Part shown: positions 1 through 12,670 of the stretch, piece by piece
Layout: each line of letters starts with the position of its first letter
How positions within the stretch are numbered: the stretch's first letter is position 1
Source of the DNA: Myxococcales bacterium
Lineage (GTDB): Bacteria; Myxococcota_A; Polyangia; Polyangiales; Polyangiaceae
DNA length: 58,396 nt
Assembly (NCBI GenBank): GCA_013297655.1
Contig: JAAFHV010000022.1
Coordinates: 1-58,396, forward strand
Direction of reading: 5' to 3'
Translations under genes and position numbers: made by a program
Notes under the pieces: generated by a model
What the model was told of the DNA's origin: nothing
What the model saw: only the letters and a program-made list of their open reading frames with translations
Database searches by the model: none

Positions 1-1056
1 ACTCCCCACGATGAGGCGAGCTTTGCCTACACGAAAGGCAATAGGCTCGTCCACGTCGACCGTTCCGATGGGTCGACGTTGCTTTACGAATACGACGCGT
101 GCGGACAGGTGGTGGCGAAGACGCTTCGGCGCGGCGACCATAACGTCGCCACCTGGGGTTATGCCTGGAACGCCCGCGGAGAGCTTGTCCGTTTTACGAC
201 ACCGAACGGCAAAGAGTGGCACTACCGCTACGACACTATCGGAAGGCGGGTGGAGAAGCGGAGTCCCACGGGAGACGTATGGCGCTATGTTTGGGCTGGC
301 GCGGTCCTCCTCCACACCCTCAGGAACGGGGTGCTCGTCGAGACGTACGTGCACGAGCCCGGCGGCCGCTGCCCGCTCGCGCGAATCGCCGACGAGCTCC
401 GGTACATCGTCCCGGACTCCGTAGGCGCGCCGAGTGAGGAGCTCGCCCCCGACGGGAGGCTCACGTGGATCGCGCAGAAGGGGACCTGGGGCGAAGGATT
501 CGTGCGCACCGGCCCGACCGGAGGCGAGCCCTTCCTCGGGCAGTGGGCGGACTCCGAGAGCGGCCTTTTCTACAACTTCTTCCGGTACTACGATCCCGAC
601 CTCGGCCGGTACCTCTCGCCGGATCCCATCGATCTCCTCGGAGGGCTCAATCTTTATGTAGGTGTAACGGACCCGTTTCAAGAGGTCGATCGGTGGGGGC
701 TTTGTCCTATCAAGGTGCCCCAACCGGGGCAGCCTCCCCAAAAACCGTGGTCGTCCGCCTCGGTCTCGCGAGCGGCGAAGCTACTCGACGCGGGCGAACA
801 CGAGGTATCCGTCGCCAGCCGAAGTGAAGCCGAAGAACTCTTTTTAGGCAAGTTCCAGGGACAAGGCTATCGGAACGTCACCGATCTTGGAAACGAACTC
901 TTCGAAAAGAAGATGACATATCATTGGGACACGCAGTTTGGCCCCGACGGTTATCTGGTTGGACACAGCCCGACCAACCCCCACGCCACTGTGCCCCACC
1001 TTCAGCTGCATCCTAGTCGCGGCCCCATTGTCCGAATCTTTATCAGGCCGCCGTAA
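1..1056 (+). CDS. RHS-repeat polymorphic toxin, C-terminal part (5' end outside window)
   Basis: The frame is open from base 1, so the gene starts upstream of the window. The visible part begins with YD-type RHS repeats (for example YEYDACGQ and WHYRYDTIGRR) and reaches the RHS-associated core signature, with motifs FFRYYDPDLGRYLSPDPIDL and NLYVG followed by DRWGL, at about 585-700. In this family the core closes a beta cocoon and is cut just after this point, releasing a variable C-terminal toxin. Here the tail is about 115 residues and carries GYRNVTD, a YHWDT motif and PHLQLHPSRGPIVRIF near the end. I do not recognise the toxin fold; the His residues could be catalytic. The next gene is a likely immunity protein. 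RHS identification is firm; toxin activity is inferred from family architecture. Confidence 0.9.
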   Translation, partial: TPHDEASFAYTKGNRLVHVDRSDGSTLLYEYDACGQVVAKTLRRGDHNVATWGYAWNARGELVRFTTPNGKEWHYRYDTIGRRVEKRSPTGDVWRYVWAGAVLLHTLRNGVLVETYVHEPGGRCPLARIADELRYIVPDSVGAPSEELAPDGRLTWIAQKGTWGEGFVRTGPTGGEPFLGQWADSESGLFYNFFRYYDPDLGRYLSPDPIDLLGGLNLYVGVTDPFQEVDRWGLCPIKVPQPGQPPQKPWSSASVSRAAKLLDAGEHEVSVASRSEAEELFLGKFQGQGYRNVTDLGNELFEKKMTYHWDTQFGPDGYLVGHSPTNPHATVPHLQLHPSRGPIVRIFIRPP

Positions 1057-1096
1057 CTTGTGAGCGAGTTCCGACATTCAGCCCGCGGTGTTACCA

Positions 1097-1468
1097 ATGT
1101 CAAATGCCATCATCTCCGCCCTTTCTCGAGACCAGATTCTTCACCTGGCCAGCCTCGAAACCCTTACAGCCCGTGCCCGGTCGAGTCACCCAGGTCGACT
1201 CGCCTGGGTTGGCGTCGTCTCCCTTGAAGCACCGAAAACGCTGTACCTAAATACAGCACTCCCTCACGAGCTCGGTCGCCTCCGTATCACATACTTCGAG
1301 GTCGATGCCGCGCACATCAAAAGCCAGTACGATACGCACCCGGACGATCTGGTTAATGCCTCCGAGCGCGACGTTGATAATTGTGCCGGCCTTCCGGACG
1401 TTCTCGCATTGTATGGTGTCGAGGTTACTGAGCTCACGTTTAAGGGTAACACGGACTATCCGCTGTAG
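1097..1468 (+). CDS. Putative immunity protein for the RHS toxin
   Basis: This 123-residue protein lies 40 bp downstream of the RHS gene on the same strand. It has no signal peptide or membrane segment, is mildly acidic and begins MSNAIISALS. I recognise no family. Its small size, cytoplasmic character and position directly behind a variable toxin tail are what is expected of a cognate immunity protein, so the function is inferred from position only. A GTG at 1088 would add three residues; I prefer the ATG at 1097, although neither has a good Shine-Dalgarno sequence. Base composition is visibly less GC-rich than the core genes further right, which fits a laterally moving toxin/immunity cassette. 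Confidence 0.55.
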   Translation: MSNAIISALSRDQILHLASLETLTARARSSHPGRLAWVGVVSLEAPKTLYLNTALPHELGRLRITYFEVDAAHIKSQYDTHPDDLVNASERDVDNCAGLPDVLALYGVEVTELTFKGNTDYPL

Positions 1469-2083: not shown

Positions 2084-3403
2084 CTACCACCCCGTCTGCA
2101 AACGAATGAAGGGCGCGATTTCGCCCGCCATACGCTGATAAAGCGCGAACGTGGGGTGATACTGACACGCGCCCAGGTCGGCGTCCGACGCGGGGCTGAA
2201 GGTGAACGTCTTCACCTTCGTGTCCCCCGCTGCGACCCGCGCGGCGACGGCGTCCGCGATGCCGCCGATCATCTTCGTGCGCGCCATGTACGGCTGTCCG
2301 CCCGTGTCCACGCCGGGGTACGAGTTGGACGTGGTGGGGCTCGTTGCAGCCACGATGTGCGCGCTCGGGTTCTTCGCCCGCACCGTCACCAGGAATTGCT
2401 CGTAGGCCGCCGCGAACGCTGCCTGCGATGGCGGCGGGTCCACCTGCGGATTCGAGAGATCGGTGCCGCCAATCATGATGACCACGACGTCGGGCTGCCA
2501 ACTCGTAAAATTCCAAAGCGGCGCTTGGCGCGGCGCTGTTCGCGGATACGTCACGTGGATGAGGTTCGTGTCGAGCGGGTTCTCGTTGTAAAGTACACCC
2601 GTTCCGGAGGCGGTTGGGGCGTAGTCCTCCGCGTCCAGGTTCGTCGCCAAGAGCTGAATGAGCGAGCGGCGCGCATTGTGAACCGCGCTCGTCGAACAAA
2701 CGGCATCGCCACGCACGCCATCTACGCCATATCCAGATAGCGTTGAATTGCCCACGATCTCGATGTGCCGCGTCTTCCGCGGCGGGGGAGGCAACAGCAC
2801 GCCGCCGTTCGGAAACGCGAACGACGAGAGCTTCAGCGTGCCGGTGAACGCTTCGGTGCGCTTGTATATCTCGATGGTGTGCTCGCCGGCGGCGAGGTTC
2901 TCCGCGAGCACCACGGTTCGTGGCGCGGTGCCCTGAATGCGAACGGCAGTCGGCGCGTTCGCGTCCACCGAGACGTCGATCCAGGTCTCGTTTACCCCGT
3001 CGCGTGCCGTGACCTCCGCGGCCGTCCCACGAAACTTCACGATCGCTCGAGAAGCGGGGTACGCGGCGGTCGCCTCCGTCGCTCCCAACTCCCAACGGCC
3101 CACGTACTGAACCGCTGGAACGGGCGGCGGCGCGCTGTCCACGCCCGCGTCTCCCGGCCCCGCGTCGCTCGCGGCGTCACCCGTGTTCGGGGAGGCATCG
3201 GCGGTCGCGTCGGCAGCCCCGTCCGCGCCCGAATCGCGGCCGACGGGCGACGCGTCCGTCGGCGCGGTCGGTACCGGTGCCGCGTCGCCCGCGGGTGGAC
3301 TGCCGGCGTCCGGCCCGCCTGCATCGGGACCGGATTGAACGGACGCGCTCGAGCACGCGAGGAGCCAGAGCAGCCCCGCCGCCGTAGCAAAGGATCGCCT
3401 CAT
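2084..3403 (-). CDS. SGNH/GDSL esterase lipoprotein, carbohydrate esterase family 2-like
   Basis: This 439-residue protein has a lipoprotein signal with lipobox LLAC (Cys17), then a 75-residue Asp/Ala/Pro-rich linker. Residues about 98-200 form a jelly-roll-like domain (YVGRWELG, then AIVKFRGT), and 215-439 an SGNH hydrolase domain. The nucleophile block is IVGNSTLSGYG with Ser220, a GNS variant of GDS; IGGTDLS resembles block III; His416 in CQYHPTF is the catalytic His. An N-terminal beta domain plus C-terminal SGNH domain is the CE2 arrangement, whose members deacetylate polysaccharides. It should be anchored on the outer face of a membrane. It is the last gene of the run that starts with the kinase at 12670, 45 bp after the third paralogous lipoprotein. 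The substrate is not predictable. Confidence 0.8.
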   Translation of the reverse strand: MRRSFATAAGLLWLLACSSASVQSGPDAGGPDAGSPPAGDAAPVPTAPTDASPVGRDSGADGAADATADASPNTGDAASDAGPGDAGVDSAPPPVPAVQYVGRWELGATEATAAYPASRAIVKFRGTAAEVTARDGVNETWIDVSVDANAPTAVRIQGTAPRTVVLAENLAAGEHTIEIYKRTEAFTGTLKLSSFAFPNGGVLLPPPPRKTRHIEIVGNSTLSGYGVDGVRGDAVCSTSAVHNARRSLIQLLATNLDAEDYAPTASGTGVLYNENPLDTNLIHVTYPRTAPRQAPLWNFTSWQPDVVVIMIGGTDLSNPQVDPPPSQAAFAAAYEQFLVTVRAKNPSAHIVAATSPTTSNSYPGVDTGGQPYMARTKMIGGIADAVAARVAAGDTKVKTFTFSPASDADLGACQYHPTFALYQRMAGEIAPFIRLQTGW

Positions 3404-3448: not shown

Positions 3449-5626
3449 CTACGGACAGGCTTCCGCCGCGGGCGGGGCCATGGAGTACACGCGGCCGTCG
3501 TTCGTCGCGAAGTAGAGCTTCGTGCCCGACCGAGCCACCGCGTACGTCGTGTTGTCTTGCGCCCCCGCGGTCGGGAAGAGGGCCTTCGGTGCCACCGCGC
3601 GCGTGGTGCACGTGGAGATCGCCATAGGGCCCGAAGCTCCTCCACCCCAGTATACGTAGTTGGCGTCGGCCGCGAGCGTGGGTACGAGCTCGCCAATGGT
3701 GTAGGGCAAGGGGGGCGTCGTCATCGCGGTGGCCTCTGTTGCCGCGGCTTGGCTCAGCGCGCGCCGCGCGAGGGTAGCGCTCGTCCCCGTGGCGTTGCCG
3801 ACGGTAAAGAAGAGCTCCGTCGAGTTCGCGGTGAGCACAACGGTCGGCGCGTCATTGCCCACTATCGCTGTAGCGGTCGCGGGGAGCTGGGCCAAGACGG
3901 AAGACGCCACACTAGTGCCATGAACGAGCGGGCCAGACGACACTCGAATCTCGCCAGTGGTCCCGAAGGTCGCCGCGGTCGCGAACGCGCCTCGCCCGTC
4001 GGAGAGCATCGTCGCCCCGAAAACGGCGCCGCCCGGTGGCACGCTCATTCTGGCTTCTGCTGCCGTTCCGTTCGGATAAAGTGATACCGCTCCAACGTGG
4101 TAAGTGATTGGGCCCGCGGTGTTGGGGGAGGGGACGAATGCTCCTTTGACCGGCGAGAGCTTTCCGTCGATGACCAACTGCTTGGCAATCGTCTCCGACG
4201 CCACGATGTCGCGCGACGTCAGCGTGTAGCACCACAGCTTCGCCCCAGGCCCGGAGGTGCCGGCGCAGGCCGAATTGCCGACCGCCTCGATATCGGAGGG
4301 GCCGTTGCCATTGTCCGCGACTGCCGTAATCGTCGGGAGCGGCGACGTCTCGGTCGCGCTCGAAGGCCCGCGCGCGTCCAGGAACGCGAGCCCAATGCGG
4401 CCCCGCACCCAAACGCGGTCATTCGCGATGGCAAGCTTTCGCGGCGCCTGAAGCTGCGTCAGCGTGGCGAGCAATACGGGAGGAGCCGGCGGCGGCGGTG
4501 ACGCGTCGGGCACAGAGCCATCGAGCGGCGTGGGTCCGCTGTCCGGTAACTCCAGCCCACTGGAGTAATATGGAGCCCGATTGGGATCCGAAGGTGCCTT
4601 GTCCCTTACCGCACCAAAGAGCCCGTTGCAGCGCGGCCTGGAGGCCATCTTGGCGTCGCAGTTGGTGGCGACGGCGATGCGGGTGGAAGCGATGGTCTTG
4701 TCGCCCACGTCGATGCGTTTGCAAACCTGGGGCGGGAACGTGAAAGTCGCAGAGGCCTCGTCGTATTTCCCGTCCCAGTCGAGGGGAACGAAACAACCCC
4801 TACCCGTGCAGCCACTCTCTTTCTCGCGCACGATCGCAAAGTTGACGGTCTTGCTCGAAGACAGACCCGCCGGAAGTGCCACTTTGCAGCCCTGGCGATC
4901 GGCCTCCTTGAGCGTTTGCTCGTTGGCAAAACAGGCGTCGACATCGAAGCACGTGCCACCCTCCGCGACGCCGTTCGCGTCGACCCCGAGCGCGCCGCCG
5001 TACACCTCCCGCACAAGATCGCCGGACGAGATCTTCTGAAGGATAGCCGTGGCGTCGACGCACTCGCCATCCGCCGAAGTCTGGCCTTGCGCACAAGGTG
5101 AGGCATATCCCGGAAAGAACGAATCGAACTCGGAGAACGAGTTGTCGCCCGGCACCGCGCGAATCCTCACGTTGCCTGGGCTGCCCGCGGTCTGCGTGGT
5201 GGGCCCGGCGCTCGCGGGTTTGTGCGTGGAGGCGAGCCACGAGAGCGGCACGCGGAGGAGCGAGAGCTGGCCGCTCGGCACGGTGGTTATCGCGTCACGC
5301 ACCACCTTGAGAGTGCCATTCTTGTATCCTGCGACCCGCACGTGCACCGGAGTCGAAGCGTCGCTCGGCTGCAGGATCGAGAGCGTGCCCGGGAGCTTCG
5401 CTGGCGCCCCAGACGAAGTGGGGGTGCGAAGGCTGGTCTTTACCTCGCCTGCGACTCCCACATAGAGCCCGAGCTCGTCGAGATCGCCATCGACGACCAT
5501 GTCGGTGGTGACCGCGACGATCACCGCAGTTGGCTCAGCAGAGCAAGCGACATGACCAGCACAAAGCCCTGCCGCGACGAGGGCAAGGGCACACGTCGCG
5601 CGTCGGTGAAGAATCGAGAGCGCCAT
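3449..5626 (-). CDS. Mosaic lipoprotein paralogue 3 (725 aa)
   Basis: Third copy in transcription order of a tandem family. It has a lipoprotein signal with lipobox HVAC (Cys28), then a conserved N-terminal half to about residue 425 starting with EPTAVIVAVTTDMVVDGDLD and containing many paired Cys. A divergent middle follows, and a highly conserved C-terminal block of about 80 residues with YVYWGGG and AQDNTTYAVARSGTKLYF. A conserved Cys pair (SAC ... WCY) lies at the entry to the variable part. The repeated short strands and WGGG/YFATNDGRVYSM motifs suggest a beta-propeller-like C-terminal half, but I do not recognise a named family. It follows the second copy by a 27-bp gap, so the copies are almost certainly cotranscribed. 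Surface exposure is inferred from the lipobox. Confidence 0.85.
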   Translation of the reverse strand: MALSILHRRATCALALVAAGLCAGHVACSAEPTAVIVAVTTDMVVDGDLDELGLYVGVAGEVKTSLRTPTSSGAPAKLPGTLSILQPSDASTPVHVRVAGYKNGTLKVVRDAITTVPSGQLSLLRVPLSWLASTHKPASAGPTTQTAGSPGNVRIRAVPGDNSFSEFDSFFPGYASPCAQGQTSADGECVDATAILQKISSGDLVREVYGGALGVDANGVAEGGTCFDVDACFANEQTLKEADRQGCKVALPAGLSSSKTVNFAIVREKESGCTGRGCFVPLDWDGKYDEASATFTFPPQVCKRIDVGDKTIASTRIAVATNCDAKMASRPRCNGLFGAVRDKAPSDPNRAPYYSSGLELPDSGPTPLDGSVPDASPPPPAPPVLLATLTQLQAPRKLAIANDRVWVRGRIGLAFLDARGPSSATETSPLPTITAVADNGNGPSDIEAVGNSACAGTSGPGAKLWCYTLTSRDIVASETIAKQLVIDGKLSPVKGAFVPSPNTAGPITYHVGAVSLYPNGTAAEARMSVPPGGAVFGATMLSDGRGAFATAATFGTTGEIRVSSGPLVHGTSVASSVLAQLPATATAIVGNDAPTVVLTANSTELFFTVGNATGTSATLARRALSQAAATEATAMTTPPLPYTIGELVPTLAADANYVYWGGGASGPMAISTCTTRAVAPKALFPTAGAQDNTTYAVARSGTKLYFATNDGRVYSMAPPAAEACP

Positions 5627-5653
5627 AATCGAGCTTTCGTGAGTCGGGTAAAA

Positions 5654-7774
5654 CTACGGACAGGGCTCGGCCGCGGGCGGGTCCATCGAGTAGACACGCC
5701 CATCGTTCGTAGCGAAGTAGAGCTTCGTGCCAGCGCGAGCGACCGCGTAGGTCGTGTTGTCCTGAGCGCCCGCCGTGGGGAAGAGTGCTTTCGGCGTGAC
5801 TGCGCGCGCGATGCAAGTCGAGACGGCCATAGGCCCCGCCGCGCCCCCACCCCAGTAGACGTAGTTGGCGTCGGCCGCGAGACTCGTTGATCCTACGCCG
5901 CTGCCGGACGGGGCGGGGACCTGGTTGCTTGTCAGTAGTATGCCAGGGGTAGGACCGGCATCGGCGTATCGCTTTCGGAAAATTGCACCAGTGCCAGCGT
6001 CACTGAGGGTGAAGAAAGCCTCGGTCGCGTTGGTCGCGATATCTATCTGGCTCTGGTGATTGTCGTACGGTGCCGGAAAAGTCGAGAAAATACCCGTCGG
6101 CTGGTCCGCCGCAGTGAGATCATTGAGCGTAATTCTCAGCGAGGGCTCATTCGTGATGTACGCTAGAAGGAGTCGATTGAGCGGAGTGAAGGCAGCTCCC
6201 GCAACGACCGCCGGAGACGGTAGATTGAAGAGCGGGCGTGAGCTAGATACCGGAGTCTCTAGCTCGAGCTCGACCGGCGCTGCTGTGACAATCTGTCCAC
6301 CATTCGAGGCGACGCCACCAACGTAGTTGATCCCTTTTGTCACGAGTGCGGAACTGAGCGTGTAACACCAGCGACCCGTCTTCTGAACGATAACATGCGA
6401 AGTACATGCGCTGTTGCCTGCTGCCGCCAGTGACACTCCGACGCCGCCCGTGTCCTGAATGCCGCCCGCCGACGGAAGCATGATTTGCTCGGGCGTGGAT
6501 GGGCCCCGGGCGTCGGTGAACGCAAGGCCAATGTCACCGCGAATCCAGACTCGGTCGTTGGCAACCGCGAGCTTCCGAGGCCGCTGAAGTTGACTAAGGG
6601 TCGCCAAGAGAAGCGGCCCGGGCGGTGCCGCGTCAGGCTTGTTCGCGTCCGCTGGCCCTGCGTCCGGCAGCACTACGGGCGCCCCGTCGTTCGGATTGGG
6701 CGGCTCGGCAGAGTAATACGGGGCCCGATTGGGATCCGAAGGCCCCTTGTCTCTCACCGCACCAAAGAGCCCGTTGCAACGCGGTCGGGAGGCCATCTTG
6801 GCGTCGCAGTTGGTGGCGACGGCGATTCGGGTGGAGGCAATGGTCTTGTCTGCCGCGCCGATGCGCTTGCAGACCTGGGGCGCGAACGTAAACGTGCTGG
6901 TCCCCTCGTCGTACTTGCCATCCCAGTCGAGGGGCGCAAAACACGCTTTGCCGGTACATCCGGTAGCGTCGTTGCGCACGACTGCGAAGTTTACGGTCTT
7001 CGGCCCGGAGAGGCCCGCCGGGATGGTTACCTTGCAGTTCTGATAGTCGGCTTCTTTGAGCGTCTGTTCGTTGGCAAAACACGCCTCGACATCGAAGCAC
7101 GTGCCGCCCTCGGCGACGCCGTTCGAGTCGACCCCGAGCGCGCCGCCGTATACCTCGCGGACGAGATCGCCGGACGAGATTTTCTGGAGCACGGCGGTCG
7201 CGTCGACGCACTCGCCGTCGGCCGACGTTTGCCCTTGCGCACAAGGTGAGACGTATCCCGGGAAGAACGAAGCGAACTCGGAGAAGGAGTTGTCGCCCGG
7301 CACGGCGCGAATCTTCACGTTGCCGGCGGTGCCCGCGGTCTGCGTGGTGGGCCCAGCGCCCGCGGGTTTGTGCGTGGAGGCGAGCCACGAGAGGGGCACT
7401 CGGAGGAGCGAGAGCTGGCCACTCGGCACGGTGGTAATCGCGTCGCGCACGACCTTGAGGGAGCCATTCTTGTAGCCGGCGACCCTCACGTGAATGGGCG
7501 TGGAAGCGTCGCTCGGCTGCAGGATCGAGAGCGTGCCGGGAAGCTTCGCCGGCTGGTCGGCGGAAGTGGGCGTACGAAGGCTCGTCTTAATCTCGCCTGC
7601 GACACCTACGTAGAGGCCAAGCTCGTCCAAGTCGCCATCGACGACCATGTCGGTCGTCACCGCGACGATGACCGCCGTAGGCTCGCGAGAGCAAGCCACG
7701 TGGCCGGCGCACAATCCTGCCGCGACGAGGGCAAGGGCACACGTCGCGCGTCGGTGAAGAATCGGGAGCGCCAT
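5654..7774 (-). CDS. Mosaic lipoprotein paralogue 2 (706 aa)
   Basis: Second copy of the tandem family. The signal peptide is nearly identical to that of copy 3 (MALPILHRRATCALALVAAG), with Cys28 after GHVA. The first ~350 residues are close to identical to both neighbours, including at the DNA level, up to the DPNRAPYYS motif. The following linker and the segment up to about residue 625 differ strongly from the other copies (for example GNSACTSH ... RWCYTLSS). The last ~80 residues match again (YVYWGGGAAGPMAVSTC). The 27-bp spacer on its downstream side is nearly the same as the spacer before it, which points to duplication of a gene-plus-spacer unit. The function is unknown; a cell-surface, ligand-binding role is a guess. 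Confidence 0.85.
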   Translation of the reverse strand: MALPILHRRATCALALVAAGLCAGHVACSREPTAVIVAVTTDMVVDGDLDELGLYVGVAGEIKTSLRTPTSADQPAKLPGTLSILQPSDASTPIHVRVAGYKNGSLKVVRDAITTVPSGQLSLLRVPLSWLASTHKPAGAGPTTQTAGTAGNVKIRAVPGDNSFSEFASFFPGYVSPCAQGQTSADGECVDATAVLQKISSGDLVREVYGGALGVDSNGVAEGGTCFDVEACFANEQTLKEADYQNCKVTIPAGLSGPKTVNFAVVRNDATGCTGKACFAPLDWDGKYDEGTSTFTFAPQVCKRIGAADKTIASTRIAVATNCDAKMASRPRCNGLFGAVRDKGPSDPNRAPYYSAEPPNPNDGAPVVLPDAGPADANKPDAAPPGPLLLATLSQLQRPRKLAVANDRVWIRGDIGLAFTDARGPSTPEQIMLPSAGGIQDTGGVGVSLAAAGNSACTSHVIVQKTGRWCYTLSSALVTKGINYVGGVASNGGQIVTAAPVELELETPVSSSRPLFNLPSPAVVAGAAFTPLNRLLLAYITNEPSLRITLNDLTAADQPTGIFSTFPAPYDNHQSQIDIATNATEAFFTLSDAGTGAIFRKRYADAGPTPGILLTSNQVPAPSGSGVGSTSLAADANYVYWGGGAAGPMAVSTCIARAVTPKALFPTAGAQDNTTYAVARAGTKLYFATNDGRVYSMDPPAAEPCP

Positions 7775-7801
7775 GATCGAGCTTTCGTGAGTCGGGTGGA
7801 A

Positions 7802-9940
7802 CTACGGACAGGGCTCAGCCGCGGGCGGGTCCATCGAGTAGACACGCCCATCGTTCGTAGCGAAAAAGAGCTTCGTGCCAGCACGAGCGACCGCGTAGGT
7901 GGTGTTGTCTTGCGCGCCCGCCGTGGGGAAGAGGGCTTTCGCGGTGACGGGTCTCGTCTTGCATGTGGAAATGGCCATTGGGCCCATAGAGCCCCCGCCC
8001 CAGTAGACGAAGTTGTCGTCCGCGGCTAGCCCTGCACTCACGTCTCCGGTTGTGTACGGTACCGAAGTCGACGTCACTATTGCGAGCAGCGCGGCGGTGG
8101 TGTCGGCCAGTCCTCTTCTTGCGATAGCGCCAGTAAGAGTTGTTGGATCGCTCAACGCGCAGAAGGCCTCTGTCGCGTTGCTCGTGCAGCCCACCCGTCC
8201 GGTAAAGGCTCGATACCCGGTTGGCGCTGCGCCGTACGGAGATGCCGGCACATTCACGCCTGCTGTCACAGCGGCGGCGGTGATGGCGACGCTGGACATT
8301 CCAGTCGAGAACGTGATCGATACGACCGCTCGACCTGTGGCCGTGGAGTGAATGCCGTTGAGGCCGCCGTTGACGGGTAGTTGGATCGACCCTTCAGTGA
8401 AGCCAATGCTGAAGAACTGACCGCTCGGGTAGACGTATCCCAACTGCGAATCAAAAGAGAATAGTCCGATCATCCCATCAGGGACTTCTCGTGTGACCCC
8501 CGGAACAGTCAGATTGTAACACCAGATATGCCCAGGCGTACCCAGCGATCCGGCACACGCTTCGTTCCCCCTCAGTACGAGGTCGACTTGCTTTGTTCCA
8601 TCATCCGCTGCGTTGCCCGCGATGGCAGGGAGTGGCGCAAACTGAGCCGGAGCTGCTGGTCCTCGCGCGTCGACAAAACCGAGGCCCACCGCGCCTCGCA
8701 CCCAAAGCCGATCGTTGGCAACCGCGAGCTTTCGAGGCCGCTGAACTTGAGTGAGCGTTGCCAATAGCATCGGCCCGGGCGGCGCGGCATCCGCCGCGTC
8801 CGGCGTACTCACGTCCGGCGGGGACCCATCCGGTAGCGCTACGGGCGCCCCGTCGTTCGGATTGGGGTCCTCGCCCGAATAATACGGAGCCCGATTGGGA
8901 TCCGAAGGCGCCTTGTCCCTCACTGCACCAAAGAGCCCATTGCAGCGCGGCCTGGATGCGATCTTGGCGTCGCAGTTGGTGGCGACGGCGATGCGCGTGG
9001 AGGCGATGGTCTTGTCTGCCGCGCCGATGCGCTTGCAGACCTGAGGCGCGAACGTAAACGTGCTGGTACCCTCGTCGTACTTGCCATCCCAGTCGAGGGG
9101 CGCAAAACACGCTTTGCCGGTGCACCCGGAAGCGACGTCGCGCACGACTGCGAAGTTTACGGTCTTCGGCCCGGAGAGGCCCGCCGGAATCGTTACCTTG
9201 CAGTTCTGGTAGTCGGCCTGTTTGAGCGTCTGCTCGTTGGCAAAACACGTCTCGACATCGAAGCATGTGCCACCCTCGGCGACGCCGTTCGCGTCGACCC
9301 CGAGCGCGCCGCCGTACACCTCGCGGACGAGATCGCCGGACGAGACCTTCTGAAGGATAGCCGTGGCATCGACGCACTCGCCATCGGCCGAAGTCTGGCC
9401 TTGCGCACACGGTGAGACGTATCCCGGAAAGAACGAATCGAACTCGGAGAACGAGTTGTCGCCCGGCACCGCGCGAATCTTCACGTTGCCGGCGGTGCCC
9501 GCGGTCTGCGTGGTGGGCCCAGCGCCCGCGGGTTTGTGCGTGGCGGCGAGCCACGAGAGGGGCACGCGGAGGAGCGAGAGCTGGCCACTCGGCACGGTGG
9601 TTATCGCGTCGCGCACGACCTTGAGGGAGCCATTCTTGTAGCCGGCGACCCTCACGTGAATGGGCGTGGAAGCGTCGCTCGGCTGCAGGATGGAGAGCGT
9701 GCCGGGAAGCTTCGCCGGCTGGTCGGCGGAAGTGGGCGTACGAAGGCTCGTCTTGATCTCGCCTGCCACACCCACGTAGAGCCCGAGCTCATCCAAGTCG
9801 CCATCGACGACCATGTCGGTCGTGACCGCCACGATCACGGCCGTAGGCTCGCGAGAGCACGCCACGTGACCCGCACACAGCGCGGCGACCGAAAGCACCG
9901 CCGCCGAACCAAGGACCTTCCGACTAAGCAAAGATCGCAT
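7802..9940 (-). CDS. Mosaic lipoprotein paralogue 1 (712 aa)
   Basis: First copy of the tandem family in transcription order. Its signal peptide differs from the other two (MRSLLSRKVLGSAAVLSVAA) but keeps the same lipobox region GHVACS. The N-terminal half and the C-terminal block match the other copies. The middle is private to this copy and carries GNEACAG ... IWCYNL in place of the SAC ... WCY element. The start is well supported: a GAGGA sequence overlapping the TGA of the PEGA gene lies about 7 nt upstream of the ATG, so translation is probably coupled to that gene. The distinct signal peptide suggests this copy is the older one, or that the other two share a later duplication. Confidence 0.85.
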   Translation of the reverse strand: MRSLLSRKVLGSAAVLSVAALCAGHVACSREPTAVIVAVTTDMVVDGDLDELGLYVGVAGEIKTSLRTPTSADQPAKLPGTLSILQPSDASTPIHVRVAGYKNGSLKVVRDAITTVPSGQLSLLRVPLSWLAATHKPAGAGPTTQTAGTAGNVKIRAVPGDNSFSEFDSFFPGYVSPCAQGQTSADGECVDATAILQKVSSGDLVREVYGGALGVDANGVAEGGTCFDVETCFANEQTLKQADYQNCKVTIPAGLSGPKTVNFAVVRDVASGCTGKACFAPLDWDGKYDEGTSTFTFAPQVCKRIGAADKTIASTRIAVATNCDAKIASRPRCNGLFGAVRDKAPSDPNRAPYYSGEDPNPNDGAPVALPDGSPPDVSTPDAADAAPPGPMLLATLTQVQRPRKLAVANDRLWVRGAVGLGFVDARGPAAPAQFAPLPAIAGNAADDGTKQVDLVLRGNEACAGSLGTPGHIWCYNLTVPGVTREVPDGMIGLFSFDSQLGYVYPSGQFFSIGFTEGSIQLPVNGGLNGIHSTATGRAVVSITFSTGMSSVAITAAAVTAGVNVPASPYGAAPTGYRAFTGRVGCTSNATEAFCALSDPTTLTGAIARRGLADTTAALLAIVTSTSVPYTTGDVSAGLAADDNFVYWGGGSMGPMAISTCKTRPVTAKALFPTAGAQDNTTYAVARAGTKLFFATNDGRVYSMDPPAAEPCP

Positions 9941-9950
9941 CGAAATATCC

Positions 9951-10991
9951 TCAGAACCTGTAGGCCGTGTTCACGATGTTTGGCGGCAACGAGCCGCCAG
10001 GTACGCCATCTTCGCGGCCCGGCTTTGCAGCAAAATAGATGCCCGTGGTAGCCCCCGCCGCGGCGACCACGCCGACGCCGACGAGCACCCACGGGATGAT
10101 GCTGCCCTTCTTCTCCTCGAGCGTGACTTGCAAGTCGCGATTCTCGTGATCGCGCAGGGCGACCTCTTTTTCGTAGGCCACCTTGCCGGGCGCAGTGACC
10201 TTCACGCTGTGGCCGCCGCTCTTCACCGTGCCGCGAAACGACCCCGTTCCCACGACCTTCCCGTCGAGCGCGATCGTGTCCGAAGCACCCGCGCGAATCG
10301 CGAGCTGCGCCTCGTGCACGAGCGGCTTCAACTCGATGGGCACCTCGACCGTTCCGCGGCCGGGGCCGGAGACCTTGGTTTGCAGATCGGCGAAGTCGTC
10401 CTTCTTGGCGACGACGGTGTGCTCGCCCACGTTCACCAAGAGCGGCTTCTCCGGGCTGCCAACGACCTCGCCGTCGATCGATATCGAAGCGCCCGTGGTC
10501 TTCACGACGAACTTGAGCGTGGTCGTGAGCGAAGCAAGGCCTTCTTCGATGTTCTTCGCGTCTTGAATGTCGCTCTCGGCGAGGAGGCCCTTGCCTTCTT
10601 CGATATACCGCCGAACCAGGGTGAGCGATTTGCCGTAGTGCTGGAGGTTCTTCTCGCACGTGGCCATGTTCCAAAGGAGACGCGGGTCCGGGAACTTGAA
10701 GTGCGCGGCCTCGAACTTCGCGAGCGCCCCTTTGAAGTCGTTGTTCCGCACGAGCACGATCGCGTCGTCGTATTCGGCTTTTGCCTCTTTGGGCAGCGTC
10801 TCGGCGAGCGAGCGCATCTTCCCGCCGGTGCTCGGCGCGGCAGCGGCCGGGGCAGCCGCGGCGGCGGCGGGCGCCTTTGGGCCGTGTTTTTGCGCGCTGG
10901 CGCTGGTGGAGAGAAGCATAACTGTGGCGGCGATCGCGAAGCCGCGGCCGGCGAATTTGAGGTTGCGTGTGCCGAGTGCCAGTGTCGTCAT
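9951..10991 (-). CDS. Exported TPR/PEGA-domain protein
   Basis: This 346-residue protein has a signal peptide ending near STSASAQ, an Ala/Pro-rich linker, and a helical TPR-like stretch at about 60-150 (DFKGALAKFEAAHFKFPDPR, then LLWNMATCEKNL). Two PEGA-type beta repeats follow at about 160-275 (ISIDGEVVGSPEKPLLVNVG and IALDGKVVGTGSF), then a hydrophobic segment near 300-325 (IPWVLVGVGVVAAAG). This is a common myxobacterial architecture, usually envelope-anchored and often found next to Ser/Thr kinases. The ATG overlaps the kinase stop codon by four bases (ATGA), indicating translational coupling. The protein could be a sensor partner or substrate of the kinase; no biochemical role can be read from sequence. 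Confidence 0.85.
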   Translation of the reverse strand: MTTLALGTRNLKFAGRGFAIAATVMLLSTSASAQKHGPKAPAAAAAAPAAAAPSTGGKMRSLAETLPKEAKAEYDDAIVLVRNNDFKGALAKFEAAHFKFPDPRLLWNMATCEKNLQHYGKSLTLVRRYIEEGKGLLAESDIQDAKNIEEGLASLTTTLKFVVKTTGASISIDGEVVGSPEKPLLVNVGEHTVVAKKDDFADLQTKVSGPGRGTVEVPIELKPLVHEAQLAIRAGASDTIALDGKVVGTGSFRGTVKSGGHSVKVTAPGKVAYEKEVALRDHENRDLQVTLEEKKGSIIPWVLVGVGVVAAAGATTGIYFAAKPGREDGVPGGSLPPNIVNTAYRF

Positions 10992-12670
10992 TTGATGATC
11001 ATGTCGTTAGCAGTGGGCTTTTTGGGTTGCCCGGTGGGGGCCTGTTGGGCCGGAGTAACTACCGTAGGCGGCGTCACGGTCGGGGGGGAGGGCTTGGCCG
11101 CGGGGGTCGCTGGCGGTGTCGGTGTGGTTGCGGCGGGCGGGTGCGCTGGACCGGCGTGGCTCGCTGCCTTCGCCCCGGCGTCGACGCTCGCGGCCTGTTC
11201 GGGAGCGTGCGGCGGCGGAGGCACCGGCACTGGCGCTGCGGCAACCGTGCTCGCGCTCGCTGTTTGAGCTGGCGCCGAGGTGGCTGCGGGAGAGCTGCTC
11301 GCCCCTGCGCTCGGACCACTCCGCACGAGGAAAATCGCAGCGCCCACGCCCACCAGCGCGAGCGCCACCGCGGCGCCGACGGCCATCGCCGGAAGGAAGG
11401 GGGAGCGAGGCGGCGCCCCGCCGGTGCTGGAGAACGCCGGAGCGAGCACCACCGGACCTGCCGCTGCGCCCGTGCTCGAGCTCGGAGCAGAAGAGCCTCC
11501 CTGCGCCGCAGGCGGGATGAGCGCCGGACCAAGCGGCGCCGTCGCCGCGCGAAGTGCAGGCCCGGGCGCGGGCTGAGCGGAGCCGATCACCTGGAGGGGA
11601 GCGCCGCCTTGCGCTGCCGCGCCACGTTTCATCACGTCGACGTTCAGCGTCCCGAGCTGGTCCATCCCCGGAGCGACGAGGCGCATGATGCGCGTCGCCC
11701 GCTCCCTCGCGGTCTCCGTCCCGACGACCCCCGCGAGATCCATCGCGAGCTCGCCGATATCCACGTAGCGCTGCGACGGGTCCCTTTGTGTGCATAGTGC
11801 AACAACGCGCCGAACGAGCGGCGGAGCATCTGGCCGAAGCTGCTCTACCGGTACGAGCGATCCCTCCATCACCCGCGCGATGACCTCCGGACCAGTGGTG
11901 CCGGGGAAGGGATAATTCTGAGTTACCAGCTCGTAAAAAGTGACGCCCAAGGCCCAAATGTCGGTTCGTTCGTCGCAGTGACGAGCGTCGCGCATTTGCT
12001 CGGGCGCCATATAGGGAATAGACCCGAAGCTGGTTTGGGTCTGCGTGATACCGGCGGCCGAGTCTTCGAGCATCTTGCTGATGCCGAAGTCGAGCACCTT
12101 CACCATCTCGGAGCCGTCGGGCCGAGCGGCGAGGAACAGATTGCTCGGCTTGAGGTCGCGGTGAATGATGCGCATCGAGTGCGCCTCACCGATCGCCTCG
12201 CACGCCTCGAGCACGTAGGCAGCGGCCTGACGAAAGTCGAGCCGCCCGAGGCGAGTGAGCCTCTCGGAGAGGTCTTCTCCCTCGAGATACTCCATCACCA
12301 TGAACGGCGTACCGTCCTCGAGCTCGTCCACGTCGGTGACCTTCGCGACGTGATCGCCGCGAATTTTGGCCGCCGCGCGCGCCTCCAGCGCAAAGCGCTT
12401 TACCAGGTCTTTTCGCTTTGCCGTCTCCGGGCGAAGGAATTTGAGGGCCACCCGCTGGTCGAGCTGGAGGTGCGTCGCGAGCGCGACGTACCCCATGCCC
12501 CCCGCCCCGAGCAGTCTATCGAGCCGATACTTCCGAGCGACCACCTGCCCCACCTCGAGCGGAGCGGGCTGCGCGTCCTGCTCCTCCGGCATGATGGACG
12601 CGCGAGGCTGCGGATTCCCTGATTGGGAGGGATATCCGGGAATGGAGGGGGGATTGGACTTGTCGCTCAC
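10988..12670 (-). CDS. Membrane-anchored Ser/Thr protein kinase (PknB type)
   Basis: This is a 560-residue Hanks-type kinase. The catalytic domain spans about 48-325, with glycine loop GAGGMG, ATP-binding Lys77 (VALKFLRPE), catalytic loop HRDLKPSN (170-177), DFG (194-196) and APE (222-224), so all key residues are present and it should be active. An Ala/Pro-rich juxtamembrane region leads to one membrane segment at about 425-450 (AVGAAVALALVGVGAAIFLV), followed by a low-complexity Pro/Ala-rich tail of about 100 residues outside the cytoplasm with no recognisable sensor domain. The start is a GTG without a clear ribosome site. It heads the operon PEGA protein, three mosaic lipoproteins, SGNH esterase, so it may regulate them or sense through the PEGA protein. 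Confidence 0.93.
   Translation of the reverse strand: MSDKSNPPSIPGYPSQSGNPQPRASIMPEEQDAQPAPLEVGQVVARKYRLDRLLGAGGMGYVALATHLQLDQRVALKFLRPETAKRKDLVKRFALEARAAAKIRGDHVAKVTDVDELEDGTPFMVMEYLEGEDLSERLTRLGRLDFRQAAAYVLEACEAIGEAHSMRIIHRDLKPSNLFLAARPDGSEMVKVLDFGISKMLEDSAAGITQTQTSFGSIPYMAPEQMRDARHCDERTDIWALGVTFYELVTQNYPFPGTTGPEVIARVMEGSLVPVEQLRPDAPPLVRRVVALCTQRDPSQRYVDIGELAMDLAGVVGTETARERATRIMRLVAPGMDQLGTLNVDVMKRGAAAQGGAPLQVIGSAQPAPGPALRAATAPLGPALIPPAAQGGSSAPSSSTGAAAGPVVLAPAFSSTGGAPPRSPFLPAMAVGAAVALALVGVGAAIFLVRSGPSAGASSSPAATSAPAQTASASTVAAAPVPVPPPPHAPEQAASVDAGAKAASHAGPAHPPAATTPTPPATPAAKPSPPTVTPPTVVTPAQQAPTGQPKKPTANDMIIK

Follow-up and report, generated by a model that had tools for sequence, protein, structure and literature searches.

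The locus analysed here raises the question of how three tandem lipoprotein genes can keep both of their ends closely alike while their centres differ strongly, and of what such an arrangement may mean for the encoded proteins. The genes were examined on positions 1-58,396 of contig JAAFHV010000022.1 from a soil-dwelling Myxococcales bacterium (Polyangiaceae; assembly GCA_013297655.1), and this whole stretch is referred to as the window; the source genome is a draft of 546 contigs that is 97.6% complete. A preliminary description had claimed three tandem lipoproteins, and both their coordinates and the minus strand proved right, with all three frames open. The features are as follows.

2084..3403, minus strand: CE2-like GDSL carbohydrate esterase, a lipoprotein encoded 45 nt downstream of g1 (CE2_N, E 3.1e-21)
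3449..5626, minus strand: g1, lipoprotein paralogue, 725 aa
3677..4369, minus strand: private centre of g1 (from the search with the g1 centre)
4559..5536, minus strand: N module of g1, residues 31-356 (from identity and silent sites)
5627..5653, minus strand: 27-nt spacer between g2 and g1
5654..7774, minus strand: g2, lipoprotein paralogue, 706 aa
5870..6517, minus strand: private centre of g2 (from the search with the g2 centre)
6707..7684, minus strand: N module of g2, residues 31-356 (from identity and silent sites)
7775..7801, minus strand: 27-nt spacer between g3 and g2
7802..9940, minus strand: g3, 712-aa lipoprotein paralogue, nearest to the promoter and with a signal peptide of its own
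8021..8668, minus strand: private centre of g3, roughly blades 2-5 of the predicted C-terminal propeller (from searches and model strands)
8873..9850, minus strand: N module of g3, residues 31-356, Cys-rich, homogenised by gene conversion (from silent sites and the family alignment)
9951..10991, minus strand: PEGA-domain protein with a TPR-like stretch, cassette partner (PEGA, E 9.6e-13)
10988..12670, minus strand: Ser/Thr protein kinase, cassette partner (Pkinase, E 1.8e-43)

As g1, g2 and g3 all lie on the minus strand, g3 is transcribed first. The kinase and PEGA genes overlap by 4 nt, the PEGA gene ends 10 nt upstream of g3, and the two spacers between the lipoprotein genes, described beforehand as duplicated, are indeed both 27 nt long and the same at 24 of 27 positions. 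This spacing suggests that the kinase gene, the PEGA gene and g3-g2-g1 form one operon, of which the CE2-like esterase gene is possibly the last member; scans for promoters and terminators yielded no more hits than shuffled sequence did. Reading the translations by eye, we found one membrane helix in the kinase, and a signal peptide together with a C-terminal membrane helix in the PEGA protein. The signal peptides of the lipoproteins end in a lipobox-like HVAC, and the invariance of the lipobox cysteine in 18 family members makes lipoprotein processing of the three products probable. At the very start of the contig, a fragment of an RHS-repeat protein whose RHS core is followed by a short tail (79-1056, plus strand) precedes a small ORF (1088-1468, plus strand), which has no family match and could encode an immunity protein.

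The layout of conserved ends and private centres was borne out, with two refinements. The N modules are 88% identical between g1 and g2, 88% between g1 and g3, and 96% between g2 and g3, in keeping with the near-identical N-terminal halves noted before, except that the signal peptide of g3 is not common to the others (50-54% identity, as against 97% between g1 and g2). A conserved C-terminal stretch of about 80 residues had likewise been proposed, and the last 78 residues are 79-85% identical among the copies. The predicted first propeller blade, just before the centre (alignment columns 394-422), is conserved too, with 76-83% amino-acid identity. The centres themselves (columns 423-667), claimed to differ strongly, fall to 26-33% identity; in centre-against-centre searches they still find each other at 31-33% identity with E values of 1e-8 to 1e-10, so that they are diverged copies and not unrelated sequences. 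Beyond the array, no convincing homologue of a centre was detected in 108 Polyangiaceae genomes, the organism's own included, and neither silent partial copies nor other centre-like sequences were found in that draft, 97.6% complete genome.

The C module of the array resembles a beta-propeller in structural modelling. An AlphaFold model of g3 built from 14 sequences has low confidence (mean pLDDT 52); its residues 386-707 nevertheless superimpose on seven-bladed WD40-type propellers with a best Z of 14.8 (rmsd 3.6, 206 aligned residues), a match which at pLDDT 52 makes the propeller and its blade limits statements of fold class only. A model of the C domain alone from three sequences was set aside as poor (pLDDT 43). 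The profile of the relatives' C modules matches 1rwi, the sensor of PknD (E 2e-10), as well as propellers of the LDL-receptor type, and hhalign linked the C domains of the window weakly to the relatives' propellers (55 columns, probability 51%, E 1.5e-4). None of the three lipoproteins (P0001-P0003) has a Pfam hit. Under this modelled fold, blades 1, 6 and 7 would be the conserved ones and blades 2-5 private, and the conserved start (blade 1) and end (blades 6-7) would be neighbours in the closed ring, leaving the centre as the remaining arc.

The history of the different segments can be read from their silent sites, measured as the rate of codon differences at positions where two copies encode the same amino acid and compared with that expected from an independent draw of codons. 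In the N module this rate is 0.31 and 0.26 for the pairs with g1 and 0.16 for g2/g3, against expectations of 0.57-0.58, whereas in the centre it is 0.60, 0.64 and, for g2/g3, 0.70, against 0.59-0.61, that is, saturated; the difference between the two segments gives Fisher p values from 7e-5 to 3e-17. As a control, a fourth family member, from contig C507 of the same genome and 37% identical to the array copies in the N module, is saturated against all three over the same region (0.52-0.58), which indicates that there is no intrinsic constraint on silent sites in this module. The N modules of other tandem pairs in the family are at or near saturation (0.40 against 0.48 expected, 0.40 against 0.43, and 0.53 against 0.59), so that, of the arrays compared, only this one shows a strong reduction in silent divergence.

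The relationships among the copies also change along the gene. The signal peptide region favours the pairing of g1 with g2, codons 61-100 of the N module that of g2 with g3 (12 of 13 polymorphic codons), codons 161-222 that of g1 with g3 (12 of 20), and codons 223-300 again that of g2 with g3 (19 of 25). Permutation tests with 6, 8 and 10 bins support both the heterogeneity of topology along the N module (p = 0.0006, 0.0004 and 0.0046) and the spread of silent differences between windows (p = 0.0202, <0.0002 and 0.0336). Strict exact-run tests of the GENECONV type, based on the longest run, were mixed (p from 0.006 to not significant), the window-based and topology tests being the stronger ones. 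The array combines two marks of concerted evolution, a silent divergence that is low or saturated segment by segment and a topology that shifts along the gene, and we conclude that mosaic gene conversion has taken place between the N modules of the copies.

At the C end, silent differences amount to 0.44 and 0.49 for the pairs with g1 and to 0.27 for g2/g3; the latter value stands against 0.70 in the centre of the same pair (p = 1.5e-6), and the C end has likely been homogenised by gene conversion between g2 and g3, while that of g1 is held similar to the others mostly by purifying selection. In blade 1, the rates of 0.74 and 0.67 for g1 against the others show silent saturation and hence no recent conversion, with 0.43 for g2/g3. 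Recombination among the copies, which the preliminary description had placed at the centre, is therefore real but located in the conserved ends. As a separate observation, the centres and first blades of g2 and g3 have a GC3 of 0.62-0.64, compared with 0.81-0.82 in their N modules, whereas the two values for g1 hardly differ (0.79 and 0.78). This could mean that the N module has undergone GC-biased conversion, or that the two centres with low GC3 are of foreign origin.

The divergence of the centre is old, and no donor copies were found for it in the genomes searched. Between g1 and the others, dN is 0.16-0.19 in blade 1 and 0.84-0.99 in the centre, although both segments are silently saturated, so that at equal age the centre tolerates or favours about five-fold more amino-acid change. 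Diversifying selection had been proposed for it. The divergence is there, but no estimate gave an omega above 1: NG86 values are 0.32-0.50 and the maximum-likelihood dS is unbounded, omega being poorly estimable where dS is saturated. Since positive selection is not demonstrated, a relaxation of constraint there would explain the data almost equally well.

The three lipoproteins have no credible match in Pfam, NCBIfam or PADLOC, neither P0003 in phmmer against the PDB nor the N module in a profile search gave a credible match, and a scan of genome contigs with the alignment of the three proteins returned no relative. A single-sequence search at E <=1e-12 detected the N module in 23 of 108 Polyangiaceae genomes. 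Six cysteines (C28, C189, C226, C232, C247 and C302), that of the lipobox included, do not vary among 18 members of the family. Where the lipoprotein was the way into a locus, kinase and PEGA genes were often present as well, and such a cassette, to which the locus in the window belongs by the adjacency of both genes to the array, recurs in many Polyangiaceae loci. A search starting from the adjacent PEGA protein recovered 25 loci, titled Labilithrix, Sorangium, Polyangiaceae, Myxococcales/Myxococcota or, in older naming, delta-proteobacteria, and nearly all from MAGs; the N module was also present in 14 of them (one weakly), many of the loci being contig ends. A second, single-copy kinase-PEGA-lipoprotein cassette lies in the same genome on contig C507 (L034, 8895-13630). 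The N module occurs alone, in open frames of about 330-385 aa, in loci L037, L063, L068 and L069, with full-length neighbours in L063 and L068.

The C modules of the family are diverse. In place of the propeller, loci L039 and L051 have an FGE-sulfatase domain; elsewhere we found an NHL propeller (L057), LamG (L066), Big_2 (L073 and L038) and a weak Ldl_recept_b propeller (L046 and L070). Judged from its sequences, the family consists of a Cys-rich N module with interchangeable C modules (NHL/YWTD propellers, LamG, Big_2, FGE), and its genes repeatedly lie next to those of a Ser/Thr kinase and a PEGA protein. The C part evolves faster in every comparable tandem pair, with amino-acid identities of 0.31-0.33 against 0.47-0.57 in the N part, and the swapping of whole C modules suggests that the C part carries specificity. 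A literature search for the kinase-PEGA-lipoprotein cassette found no description of it in the papers covered. The family has no Pfam or NCBIfam model, yet recurs beside Ser/Thr kinases through the Polyangiaceae with very different outer modules.

We propose, with about even confidence, that the proteins are kinase-linked surface sensors or adhesins, in which a shared dock has been homogenised by conversion and the binding face diversified. The three paralogous lipoproteins are an old tandem set that shares an apparent operon with genes for a membrane Ser/Thr kinase and a PEGA/TPR protein. The N module may act as a lipid-anchored dock fitting a common partner, the PEGA protein together with the kinase, and the need to fit this partner would keep it uniform through conversion and purifying selection. 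The propeller would be the outward face for contact with ligands or cells; blades 6, 7 and 1, which adjoin in the closed ring, might keep the scaffold, and the free arc of blades 2-5 could give each copy a specificity of its own. The operon would then express several sensors or adhesins feeding one kinase, an arrangement like that of the PknD kinase with its propeller sensor moved onto separate lipoproteins. These roles of dock and binder are inferred from the conserved gene neighbourhood, the swapping of modules and the analogy with PknD. Ligand-receptor diversification, one of the readings offered beforehand, fits best among them, the diverged part being the likely binding module of kinase-linked modular lipoproteins. 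A more specific form of the proposal, which we regard as rather doubtful, is a split receptor with one membrane kinase and several lipoprotein sensors, whose dock is kept by conversion and whose ligand domains (propeller, LamG, FGE or Ig-like) are interchangeable or diversified.

Other histories could produce a similar pattern. It is possible, if less than probable, that only the N module is converted while the centre drifts, since blades tolerate substitution and diverged sequence is no longer convertible; the copies would then be redundant and serve dosage, with no diversified binding. An omega that does not exceed 1, the faster C part of every other comparable tandem pair and the lack of a convincing homologue of the centres outside the array would all agree with such drift. 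The retention of three full-length open copies in one operon and the tight conservation of blades 1 and 7 point instead to a propeller under selection, and the exchange of whole C modules in the family again suggests that specificity resides there. We consider it improbable that a recent tandem triplication was followed by the import of diverged centres through homologous recombination from other strains or lost paralogues. This would yield the same low-high-low silent profile, uncouple the histories of ends and centre, and agree with the GC3 of the g2 and g3 centres lying below that of their N modules; against it, a search of 108 genomes of the family, the organism's own included, revealed no donor, GC3 is alike in the centre and the N module of g1, a single recent triplication would not be expected to leave the N module a mosaic, and the silent gradient of g2/g3 is gradual (0.16, 0.25, 0.43, 0.70) and not stepped.

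Antigenic or phase variation, in which expressed and silent copies shuffle the centre, had been suggested for the conserved-variable-conserved layout of tandem predicted lipoproteins, but we find it very unlikely. Each of the three genes is complete and in frame, and they run in the same direction within an apparent operon; neither silent cassettes nor donor copies of the centre turned up in the draft genome, and the closest relatives with a name belong to environmental Polyangiaceae. A diversity-generating retroelement acting on the centres was rejected as well: reverse transcriptases (RVT_1) occur only on contigs C15 and C540, and none is adjacent to the array or elsewhere on this contig. 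Least credible of all is a set of polymorphic lipoprotein toxins for kin discrimination like the SitA toxins of Myxococcus, which carry C-terminal nucleases and have cognate immunity proteins (PMC8546572). The array resembles SitA as a tandem of modular myxobacterial lipoproteins with a conserved N part and, within the family, an exchangeable C module; unlike SitA, it has a conserved C-terminal end and matches no toxin family, and its 27-nt spacers leave no room for immunity genes.

Should the split receptor be true, the array would represent a receptor repertoire in which conversion maintains a uniform dock and leaves the binding arc at liberty to specialise. If the N module docks to the PEGA protein or the kinase, this would hint at a way in which myxobacteria connect various sensors to a single signalling component.

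Among known systems, the myxobacterial surface receptor TraA, whose polymorphism sets the specificity of recognition (PMC6372800), is comparable in that the array copies are predicted candidates for cell-surface receptors; TraA is a single locus that varies between strains, whereas here three copies stand in one genome, and no Pfam or NCBIfam model matches these lipoproteins. In PknD of Mycobacterium tuberculosis, a Ser/Thr kinase is fused to a beta-propeller sensor (PMC3601408, PDB 1rwi). The likeness would lie in the pairing of a membrane Ser/Thr kinase with a beta-propeller outside the cytoplasm, and the relatives' profile matches 1rwi; in the array, the predicted propeller is on separate adjacent lipoproteins that would be coupled to the kinase, whose own ORF has no propeller match and terminates in a low-complexity tail. 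A close evolutionary parallel is found in the avian receptors TLR2A and TLR2B, in which both ends are gene-converted and the centre is not, identical codons making up 99% of the ends and 56% of the centre (PMC3125219). There as here, the ends of paralogues are homogenised and the centre escapes, as judged by the same silent-codon test. TLR2A and TLR2B are animal receptors with orthologues for comparison, and in the bacterial lipoproteins the C end of g1 is kept mostly by purifying selection; the array is a clear case from bacteria in which conversion keeps paralogues alike at their ends as the centre diverges.
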